Assembly (NCBI GenBank): GCA_014190295.1 | Contig: BJGF01000008.1 | Span: forward strand, 1 to 33,854 | Source of the DNA: Actinomycetes bacterium | Lineage (GTDB): Bacteria > Actinomycetota > Acidimicrobiia > Acidimicrobiales > Ilumatobacteraceae | DNA: 33,854 nucleotides | Direction of reading: 5' to 3' | Shown here: in pieces, positions 13,227-31,064 of the stretch | How the letters are laid out: the number at the start of each line of letters is the position of its first letter | Numbering within the stretch: position 1 is the stretch's first letter | Notes under the pieces: model-generated | Told to the model about the DNA's origin: nothing | Database searches by the model: none | Seen by the model: the letters and a program-made list of their open reading frames with translations, nothing else | Made by a program: the position numbers and the translations under genes

Positions 13227-13299
13227 TGGTCGGGACCGGCGTCGATCCGGTGACCCTGCGCTTTTCAGGCGCATGCTCTGCCTACTGAGCTACCCGACC
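13227..13299 (-). tRNA. tRNA-Phe (anticodon GAA)
   Basis: The minus strand gives a complete 73-nt cloverleaf: acceptor GGTCGGG/CCCGACC, anticodon stem TGCGC/GCGCA, loop CTGAAAA (anticodon GAA), T-arm ACCGG/CCGGT and discriminator A. It is the last of three tRNAs on this strand. Downstream of it lies an AT-rich 75-bp spacer with a 14-bp perfect AT palindrome (13199-13212), which could help end the transcript. Confidence 0.96.
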
Positions 13300-13323
13300 T
13301 TGAAGAGTGAGAACACTCCCCAG

Positions 13324-13397
13324 CGGTCCCGACGGGACTTGAACCCGCGACCTCCGCCTTGACAGGGCGGCGTGAACTCCAACTTCACCACGGGACC
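13324..13397 (-). tRNA. tRNA-Asp (anticodon GTC)
   Basis: A cloverleaf on the minus strand: acceptor GGTCCCG/CGGGACC, anticodon stem CCGCC/GGCGG, loop CTGTCAA (anticodon GTC), T-loop TTCAAGT, discriminator G, 74 nt, CCA not encoded. It is the middle member of the Glu-Asp-Phe cluster. Confidence 0.96.
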
Positions 13398-13427
13398 AGA
13401 TTCTGCTATTGCTGAAACTGATCTTTG

Positions 13428-13500
13428 CACCCCCAACGGGATTCGAACCCGTGCCGCCACCTTGAAAGGGTGGTGTCCTAGGCCACTAGACGATGGGGGC
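13428..13500 (-). tRNA. tRNA-Glu (anticodon TTC)
   Basis: A cloverleaf on the minus strand: acceptor GCCCCCA/TGGGGGT (first pair G-U), anticodon stem CCACC/GGTGG, loop CTTTCAA (anticodon TTC), T-loop TTCGAAT, discriminator G, 73 nt. It is first in the Glu-Asp-Phe order, an arrangement known from other actinobacteria. Confidence 0.96.
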
Positions 13501-29513: not shown

Positions 29514-29888
29514 TTAAGCAACCCAGTGCTCGGGGAGAGGCACTTCTTGGATTGTTAACACCGCACAAGGCTTCGTAACCGGACGACCCCGTGGTCGTTT
29601 TGTTGAACGAATTCGCCCGTCTTCGATTAGCTCGCCGCCCCACACACCCCACGGTTCACTGCGAGATAATGCGCCAGCAAGACAATCAGCCTTGCTCGTG
29701 CACTTGGCACAAATCGCCTTGGCTCGCGCCATGTCAACGAACTCTTCTGAGAAGAACAAGTATGACAATGTTCCGTTGCCGTCGTTGCATCGCATCGCTG
29801 ACAGTATGAATTGTGGATTGTCGTCAATTGCGAATTTAAAGTTTTCGCCAATTTCATTTTCGGCGAATCGTGTTTCTAACATTGTCAT
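29514..29888 (-). CDS. whiB7: WhiB7-like Fe-S transcription factor
   Basis: A 124-residue Wbl protein. The four cluster cysteines are C34, C60, C63 and C69 (C-Xn-CxxC-x5-C). The turn EPWGVWGGE (78-86) and a basic AT-hook-like KRPRGRP (97-103) match the mycobacterial WhiB7 form, where the hook reads RGRPR. WhiB7 binds the sigma-A subunit through its cluster and activates intrinsic antibiotic-resistance genes at AT-rich promoters. Compared with WhiB7 it has a longer N-terminus and a ~20-residue C-terminal tail with an extra Cys108. AAGGA precedes ATG 29888. The long leader upstream contains a terminator, described separately. Assignment to WhiB7 rather than another Wbl rests on the hook and EPWGVWGGE. 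Confidence 0.85.
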   Translation of the reverse strand: MTMLETRFAENEIGENFKFAIDDNPQFILSAMRCNDGNGTLSYLFFSEEFVDMARAKAICAKCTSKADCLAGALSRSEPWGVWGGELIEDGRIRSTKRPRGRPVTKPCAVLTIQEVPLPEHWVA

Positions 29889-29946
29889 ATCATTTCCTTT
29901 CGTTTGTTGTTGGTTATTTATTTTTAGCTAAGTAGCTTCACCCCGG

Positions 29947-29984
29947 AAAAACAAAAAGACCGCCGGGTTTTCACCCGACGGTCT
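29947..29984 (-). terminator. Intrinsic terminator within the whiB7 leader (attenuator)
   Basis: On the minus strand, AGACCGTCGGGT pairs with ACCCGGCGGTCT across a GAAA tetraloop. It forms a 12-bp stem with one G-U pair, followed by TTTTGTTTTT. The G-U becomes a C-A mismatch in the plus strand, so the structure is tuned for minus-strand RNA. It ends about 58 nt before the whiB7 ATG, and no other minus-strand gene lies upstream that it could terminate. Confidence 0.85.
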
Positions 29985-30015
29985 CGTGGATTTCTCCGAC
30001 GTGAAATCTTTTACG

Positions 30016-30132
30016 TCAGATGCATCCCGAGGTGTCGGGTTGGCTGTTTGGTTGAATAATCAACGAAACTTTTCGCCGCGTTAAACCAGCGAGATTTGCT
30101 GGCTGTACGCACGAATTTAATCGTGCGCACAT
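30016..30132 (-). CDS. Possible leader peptide ORF of whiB7
   Basis: A 38-codon frame from ATG 30132 to TGA 30016, beginning MCARLNSC and ending SQPDTSGCI. It has no Shine-Dalgarno sequence and no recognisable homology. Its codons for Gln-Pro-Asp-Thr run through the ACCCGAC anti-terminator segment, so a translating ribosome would mask that segment and favour the terminator, whereas a ribosome stalled earlier would free it. A longer start in the same frame (30237) and an overlapping 62-codon frame (30199-30011) are alternatives. The evidence is positional only. Confidence 0.35.
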   Translation of the reverse strand: MCARLNSCVQPANLAGLTRRKVSLIIQPNSQPDTSGCI

Positions 30133-30284
30133 TAAACGAACGCGTATTAATCGCGCGTGCGTCGGCTGTTGCCAATGGATGAAAAACTGATAAGAACATG
30201 AACCATCAAGGCAACCATGTTTGACCGCCATTTCCAAGCGATTTAATTTTGATCTGTTGTATCCCCATCAGACCCAATACTGGA

Positions 30285-30296: not shown

Positions 30297-31064
30297 ATGT
30301 CAGACACAGGGCGGTCAACTGGCCTGCCAAGCCCCGTTCCGCAATCGGGACGAATGTTTTCAACCAGTCGCAAAGTGCGTCTTGGGGACGTCACACCCAA
30401 GGGTCGACTGAGACTTGATGCCGCGGCACGATATTTACAAGACATTGCCACAGATGATTCTTTAGATGGCAACTACAGCGAACCCCATTCATGGGTTGTG
30501 CGGCGCACCGAAATGTGGGTGACTACGTTTCCTAAATATTTAGACGAGATCGCTTTAACCACTTGGTGTGGGGCACTCGGGTCGCACTGGGCAGAGCGTC
30601 GCACGCAAATCAGATGCGGCGAAACTGTCGCTATTGAAACAGCAGCACTGTGGGTACGAGTTGATTTTAAAACTATGAAGCCTGTTGCGTTGGCAAAAGA
30701 CCTTGTCGAACTTCTTTCCTCGGCCACGAATGGCCGAAAAATTTCATCGCGCCTAGAAATCGGCAAAAATCTTCCAAATTTAAATACCAACGATGCAATC
30801 GTCAAAGATTGGCCGATTCGGTTTAGTGACATGGATGCAGTTGGCCATCTAAATAATGCCGCTTATTGGGAAGTCCTTGAAGAATATCTCGGCGCAAACT
30901 CTGGCAAGCGCGCACCTTTGCATGCAACTATCGAACATCACGGTGCAGTTGACCCAGGTGACAAAGTGCGAATCGTCACGCAAAACTTAGATGGTCGAGT
31001 TATTTTGCGACATGTTCTGCAAGACGACGAAGTCGCAGCAGTGACCCAACTTATTTTGGGGTAG
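30297..31064 (+). CDS. Acyl-ACP thioesterase-family protein
   Basis: A 255-residue double hotdog-fold protein. The first half has RKVRLGDVTPKGRLRLDAAARYLQDIATD (about residues 24-53, in parts) and WVVRRTEMWV, as in plant Fat and bacterial acyl-ACP thioesterases. The second hotdog has RFSDMDAVGHLNNAAYWEVLEE (about 176-197), the usual D-x-N/H-HxNN-x-YW active-site pattern. It likely releases fatty acids from acyl carrier protein or CoA. It starts at ATG 30297, or possibly ATG 30351 (MFSTSRK). It is divergent from whiB7, and its 3' end overlaps orn by 14 nt. Confidence 0.85.
   Translation: MSDTGRSTGLPSPVPQSGRMFSTSRKVRLGDVTPKGRLRLDAAARYLQDIATDDSLDGNYSEPHSWVVRRTEMWVTTFPKYLDEIALTTWCGALGSHWAERRTQIRCGETVAIETAALWVRVDFKTMKPVALAKDLVELLSSATNGRKISSRLEIGKNLPNLNTNDAIVKDWPIRFSDMDAVGHLNNAAYWEVLEEYLGANSGKRAPLHATIEHHGAVDPGDKVRIVTQNLDGRVILRHVLQDDEVAAVTQLILG

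Follow-up and report, generated by a model that had tools for sequence, protein, structure and literature searches.

A predicted uORF-dependent transcription attenuator upstream of whiB7 in Ilumatobacteraceae and other Acidimicrobiia

The whiB7 gene of the window, i.e., the whole stretch of DNA analysed here (33,854 nucleotides), is very probably controlled by a uORF-dependent transcription attenuator. By sequence comparison, all the parts such a device would need are conserved, namely a WhiB7-type promoter, a uORF with a hairpin across its stop codon, an antiterminator strand and an intrinsic terminator. The window corresponds to contig 8 of a 1.77-Mb genome of Ilumatobacteraceae (Acidimicrobiia), whose closest named relatives are metagenome-assembled Ilumatobacteraceae/acIV. 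A preliminary description of this DNA had pointed to the terminator and to a complementary segment upstream of it; to these we add the promoter, the uORF with the hairpin at its stop codon, and the extent of the pairing, about 10 bp.

The whiB7 gene and its leader in the window

The features considered are the following.
29514-29888, minus strand: whiB7, 124 aa, with C34, C60-x2-C63-x5-C69, an EPWGVWGG turn and an RPRGRP AT-hook
29895-29900, minus strand: putative Shine-Dalgarno sequence of whiB7, AAAGGA
29945-29985, minus strand: intrinsic terminator, a 13-bp stem with GAAA loop (29985-29956) followed by a U-rich tract
29973-29985, minus strand: terminator 5' arm, GAGACCGTCGGGT, common to terminator and antiterminator
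29995-30020, minus strand: stop-codon hairpin, TCTGACGT/ACGTCGGA, across the uORF stop, forming the inner part of the antiterminator fold (from covariation and MFE)
30011-30199, minus strand: uORF of 62 codons, MFLSVFHPL...STKQPTRHLGMHLT and stop (from the ORF list and coding constraint)
30029-30040, minus strand: antiterminator strand, ACCCGACACCTC, which encodes residues T-R-H-L of the uORF and pairs with GAG..GTCGGGT in the 5' arm of the terminator
30209-30244, minus strand: WhiB7-type promoter, AAATCGC-TTGGAA (-35), 17 bp, TTGCCT (-10-like), with an AT-rich block on the 5' side
30297-31064, plus strand: acyl-ACP thioesterase gene, neighbour of whiB7 and divergent to it

The product encoded at 29514-29888 matches PF02467 (WhiB domain, 43.8 bits) and has M. 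tuberculosis WhiB7 as its best PDB relative (67 bits), followed by WhiB1 (27.9 bits). The features that define the WhiB7 (WblC) subfamily are all present (four Fe-S cysteines, the GVWGG turn with EPW and the C-terminal RGRP AT-hook) and, judged on its sequence, the protein is WhiB7, encoded by one of the six WhiB genes of this genome. The AAAGGA motif, 6 nt 5' of the ATG, is likely its Shine-Dalgarno sequence. With the thioesterase gene on the plus strand, the earlier statement that upstream of the terminator no minus-strand gene is left to terminate holds with one exception, since the ORF list of the window does contain the 62-codon uORF there. In an Rfam scan of the window only four tRNAs reached the gathering score, and the leader matched no curated RNA family; three consecutive tRNA genes lie at 13227-13500, minus strand.

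Read on the minus strand, the terminator consists of GAGACCGTCGGGT-GAAA-ACCCGGCGGTCTT followed by TTTGTTTTTC, with a folding energy of -24.3 kcal/mol. The GAAA-capped stem and the U-rich run facing whiB7 are thus real, the stem having 13 pairs and not the 12 first counted. Likewise, ACCCGAC (30040-30034) is exactly complementary to GTCGGGT (29979-29973) as had been proposed, with 54 and not 55 nt between them, and the conserved pairing is longer, about 10 bp, involving CCCGAC plus CCTC against the whole terminator 5' arm. In the window sequence alone, this complementarity is marginal, near chance: a perfect 7-mer complement of the terminator arm in the upstream 72 nt had P = 0.043 by dinucleotide shuffles, and the duplex energy P of about 0.06-0.07. 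Since a match of this kind is expected in about 4-7% of shuffles, the case depends on the relatives.

The promoter of the window agrees with the family motif at 18 of 18 positions, shuffled controls reaching 13 at most, and the motif score is at least 15 in 52 of 70 leaders (shuffled maxima, 13 or lower). The family pattern reads AAATCG[C/G]TTG-18 nt-GGTT[G/T]CCT and its strict form occurs in the window genome at a single site, that of whiB7. A generic sigma-70 scan did not detect any leader promoter, whereas the comparative motif did. The AT-rich block before the -35 is the known WhiB7 target (PMC3905903), and the promoter motif is conserved in the family leaders, dependence on WhiB7 being predicted. 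A search for a WhiB7 regulon with a looser promoter pattern (TANNNT) returned 3 matches against 7 in a reversed control, and no regulon is named. The uORF ATG (30199) lies 9 nt past the -10-like element in the window, and 7-11 nt past it in 32 of the 52 leaders with a clear promoter; because of this short distance, the mRNA 5' end may almost coincide with the uORF start (near-leaderless translation) in the window as in many other Ilumatobacteraceae.

Conservation and covariation of the leader

Leaders were collected from the 101 family genomes in which the WhiB7 protein was searched for, as well as from other records. Among the latter, L039, L042 and L047 are titled Ferrithrix thermotolerans and Bifidobacterium breve, and carry whiB7 genes 85-91% identical to that of the window, so that these titles look wrong. 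The order of the parts, i.e., promoter, uORF, antiterminator strand, stop hairpin and terminator, is the same in nearly all terminator-bearing leaders. The antiterminator strand, typically CCCG[A/G]C-x-CCTC, lies inside the last 15 codons of the uORF, the stop codon is covered by a hairpin such as GACGUAA...ACGUC, and the terminator, GAGGCCG[C/U]CGGG...CCCGGCGGCCUUU, is found about 19-31 nt past the uORF stop codon. The duplex/complement test gave P < 0.05 in 48 of 70 family leaders, with about 3.5 expected and the leaders non-independent.

In a MAFFT alignment of 63 family leaders (A1), pairs form in 90.5% of the cells of the antiterminator helix and in 84.7% of those of the stop hairpin, four of whose seven pairs show double changes. 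The two together reach 88%, against 23-43% when the structure is slid, and the terminator reaches 96.9%, the second set of slid controls giving 27-51%. Columns 25:93 of the antiterminator are G-C in 52 leaders, A-U in 11 and broken in none, while columns 26:92 are GC in 27, AU in 22 and broken in 14, and columns 44:69 are CG in 31, UA in 14 and UG in 11. In leaders with U at column 92, a U-G at 92:111 is usually accepted in the terminator (20 leaders), but opposite this U the antiterminator has A in 22 of 23, so that it is the antiterminator that retains a Watson-Crick pair. Mapped on the WhiB7 protein tree, these states changed at least 4 times at 25:93 and at least 12 times at 26:92. Both sides change together in all three independent supported pairs at 25:93, which are too few for the sign test to be significant. 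Covariation analysis of related leaders, proposed earlier as a check, thus found compensatory changes at 25:93 and 26:92 and conservation of both pairings. Because of these changes, and of the 48 leaders at P < 0.05, we regard the antiterminator complementarity as solid on comparative grounds, that is, conserved and real beyond chance.

The same data bear on the possibility that the terminator acts as a constitutive partial brake, the upstream complementarity being an accident of G+C-rich coding sequence. The near-chance values in the window (P 0.04-0.07) and the only moderate P obtained in many G+C-rich leaders are what such a brake would give, but it would leave unexplained the compensatory changes of the antiterminator helix, seen again in held-out families, as well as why a further hairpin, across the uORF stop, is conserved; we consider it very unlikely.

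Beyond the family, 148 genomes of the class were scanned with a covariance model of the antiterminator and stop hairpin (R1). This model returned 50 matches, 46 of which, from 19 families, are located directly upstream of a WhiB7-grade gene on the same strand, 53-293 nt 5' of the part of whiB7 that was matched. In the held-out families (16 leaders), 81.3% of cells are paired and nine pairs show double changes, in an alignment fitted to R1, which favours pairing, slid versions of it reaching only 28-48%. The held-out stop hairpin has double changes at all of its seven pairs, and pair 21:110, equivalent to A1 pair 26:92, is GC in 8 and AU in 5. These comparisons support conservation, with covariation, of the terminator/antiterminator pair facing whiB7 in Ilumatobacteraceae as well as 18 further Acidimicrobiia families. 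The earlier suggestion that the attenuator logic extends outside Mycobacterium and Streptomyces is therefore supported, by the covarying pair in these 19 families and by the coding constraint on the uORF seen within the genus.

Two weak R1 matches (E about 1e-4 to 1e-3) at G000:C1:108-191 and G005:C71:8786-8900, both on the minus strand, do not lie upstream of whiB7 and are probably terminator-like chance matches. A WhiB7-grade gene is absent from genera g9 and g57 and family f4, small-genome Acidimicrobiia, and R1 had no match in those sampled members that could be checked; whiB7 and its leader were apparently lost jointly in these lineages. Tandem whiB7-like pairs occur in several Ilumatobacteraceae (L066, L068, L077, L079, L081, L088), with the attenuator preceding one copy only. 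No attenuator is present in genus g13 (L084, L094, L097, L101), nor before certain first copies of tandem pairs (L061, L081); there, the gene comes after an ORF resembling an oxidoreductase (...AHRHMEAD.NVGKIL...).

The uORF and the predicted operation of the switch

The uORFs of ten leaders of the genus span 48-70 codons, every length difference being of whole codons, and those of the family about 46-105 codons. In the N-terminal part, 48% of the single-base differences among the ten genus leaders are synonymous versus 25% expected, and in the last 12 codons 27% versus 28%, both from pairwise counts that are non-independent. Translation of the uORF under coding constraint is supported at the sequence level. 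The value at expectation in the last 12 codons fits RNA pairing, and not a peptide, being kept there and, as this end is without synonymous excess, the conserved ARHLG peptide is probably merely the antiterminator strand read in frame. Lys-Arg codons (TKR/NKR) are frequent in family uORFs right 5' of the antiterminator strand (A1 columns 8-12; about 30050-30045 in the window), and NKR is also present in the uORF of the Nanopelagicales leader L050.

Such codons could suit an amino-acid-specific attenuation, in which the uORF would sense one charged tRNA as in trp or ilvB leaders, the more so as uORF-controlled whiB7/wblC reportedly responds to amino-acid starvation too (PMC11550727). We consider this unlikely, since the 62-codon uORF of the window does not contain any run of codons for one amino acid and the N-terminal part is free to vary in composition as well as in length across the 48-70 codons of the genus.

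Folding predictions agree with two alternative states. With RNA polymerase just past the terminator 5' arm, the MFE structure (-33.8 kcal/mol) is the complete antiterminator with the stop hairpin inside it, and masking of the stop-codon region, as by a ribosome, leads to the terminator as the predicted fold. Once the whole terminator is made, the terminator state is at -42.2 versus -36.5 with the antiterminator forced. As the finished terminator state is thermodynamically better, in this model the switch must be kinetic, with the antiterminator winning kinetically. That terminator and antiterminator are mutually exclusive, as first proposed from the complementarity, is thus sustained by the predicted folds and by the covariation in A1 and in the held-out families.

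In the attenuator we propose, ribosomes translating freely to the uORF stop would open the stop-codon hairpin and prevent any pairing that spans it, leaving the terminator 5' arm to pair with its own 3' arm, so that RNA polymerase would stop. If ribosomes stalled early or were unable to start, the antiterminator strand and the stop hairpin would fold with the terminator 5' arm once this is made, a fold that would exclude the terminator and allow transcription of whiB7, whose product would then boost its own promoter. The signal would be a general translation arrest, caused by ribosome-targeting drugs or perhaps by amino-acid shortage. The direction of the response, from arrest to read-through, is inferred from PMC11550727, PMC4128351 and the anatomy of the leader.

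Leader folds could instead, or in addition, act on translation by hiding the whiB7 ribosome-binding site, and uORF systems of such a type do exist. Yet, the conserved helices end at the U-tract, about 45 nt 5' of the whiB7 Shine-Dalgarno, whose A-rich surroundings are not part of any conserved fold, making control at this level highly improbable. A further-reaching reading, which we put forward tentatively and with more doubt than confidence, is that the leader represents an undescribed Acidimicrobiia-wide RNA class in which the stop-codon hairpin senses the ribosome and, the uORF being near-leaderless in many members, the switch would read leaderless initiation and respond to a drug range unlike the mycobacterial one.

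Relation to known attenuators

The uORF-dependent attenuators of whiB7/wblC in Mycobacterium and Streptomyces were reportedly treated by Lee et al. 2022 (10.1111/mmi.14834, cited here after the review PMC11550727). In the literature searched, which did not cover that work, no earlier description of a whiB7 attenuator in Acidimicrobiia was found. Attenuation of whiB7/wblC by a uORF, with the same mechanism, is described for Streptomyces and Mycobacterium (review PMC11550727) and, in M. bovis and M. marinum, it was observed where a uORF and a terminator together precede whiB7 (Dinan et al. 2014, PMC4128351). Our comparisons support the view that the attenuator of the window is this known one, here extended to Acidimicrobiia, a class distinct from those of Mycobacterium and Streptomyces. 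Shared with the latter are the orthologous gene, the WhiB7-type promoter with an AT-rich block before the -35, the uORF 3' end just before an intrinsic terminator and an antiterminator complementary to the terminator 5' arm. On the contrary, helix and uORF sequences are not alignable, R1 misses the Mycobacterium and Streptomyces leaders, and the uORF starts about 9 nt past the -10-like element in many Ilumatobacteraceae, while it is preceded by a Shine-Dalgarno in the Mycobacterium-like leader.

The same order of uORF end, complementary segment and terminator is found in Mycobacterium-like (L149), Streptomyces-like (L154-L158) and Nanopelagicales (L050, L052) leaders, the Mycobacterium-like and Streptomyces-like labels within L149-L168 being assignments by judgement, partly from layout. 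In L149, uORF TCCGTGG pairs with terminator CCACGGA and GAGCTTCATCTAGGAAAGCTC folds over the stop codon; this leader also carries the shared promoter words AAAATCGCTTG, in agreement with common descent. In these other classes, single-leader tests of duplex energy and pairing were mostly not significant, and R1 searched in the rest of the phylum gave a few matches with E from 1e-6 to 1e-3, which were treated as chance, as none of them fell at any of the WhiB7-grade genes listed. Deeper homology to the Mycobacterium and Streptomyces leaders is hence plausible from layout, not from alignable sequence. The ancient control circuit suggested in the preliminary description stays plausible on the shared order of parts, but R1 found nothing convincing outside the class.

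These findings would place translation-sensing control of a resistance regulator in freshwater bacteria that are uncultured, partly genome-reduced and not known to produce antibiotics or to cause disease, and would support an origin of the circuit before Acidimicrobiia split from Mycobacterium and Streptomyces. The antiterminator with its stop-codon hairpin is a covariation-supported structure without an Rfam match here, which can serve in searches for further switches of this kind and in tests of how they work.

More distant parallels are offered by the ilvB leader of M. tuberculosis (PMC13236596) and by trp-type attenuators, which likewise combine a leader peptide with mutually exclusive terminator and antiterminator, but sense specific amino acids through regulatory codon runs of which the uORF of the window has none. 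In the antibiotic-responsive uORF attenuators of ABC-F genes of Firmicutes, e.g., that of vmlR (PMC9226507), ribosome arrest on the uORF also prevents the terminator from forming; genes and structures are unrelated to ours, and the gene controlled in the window would be a self-activating transcription factor.
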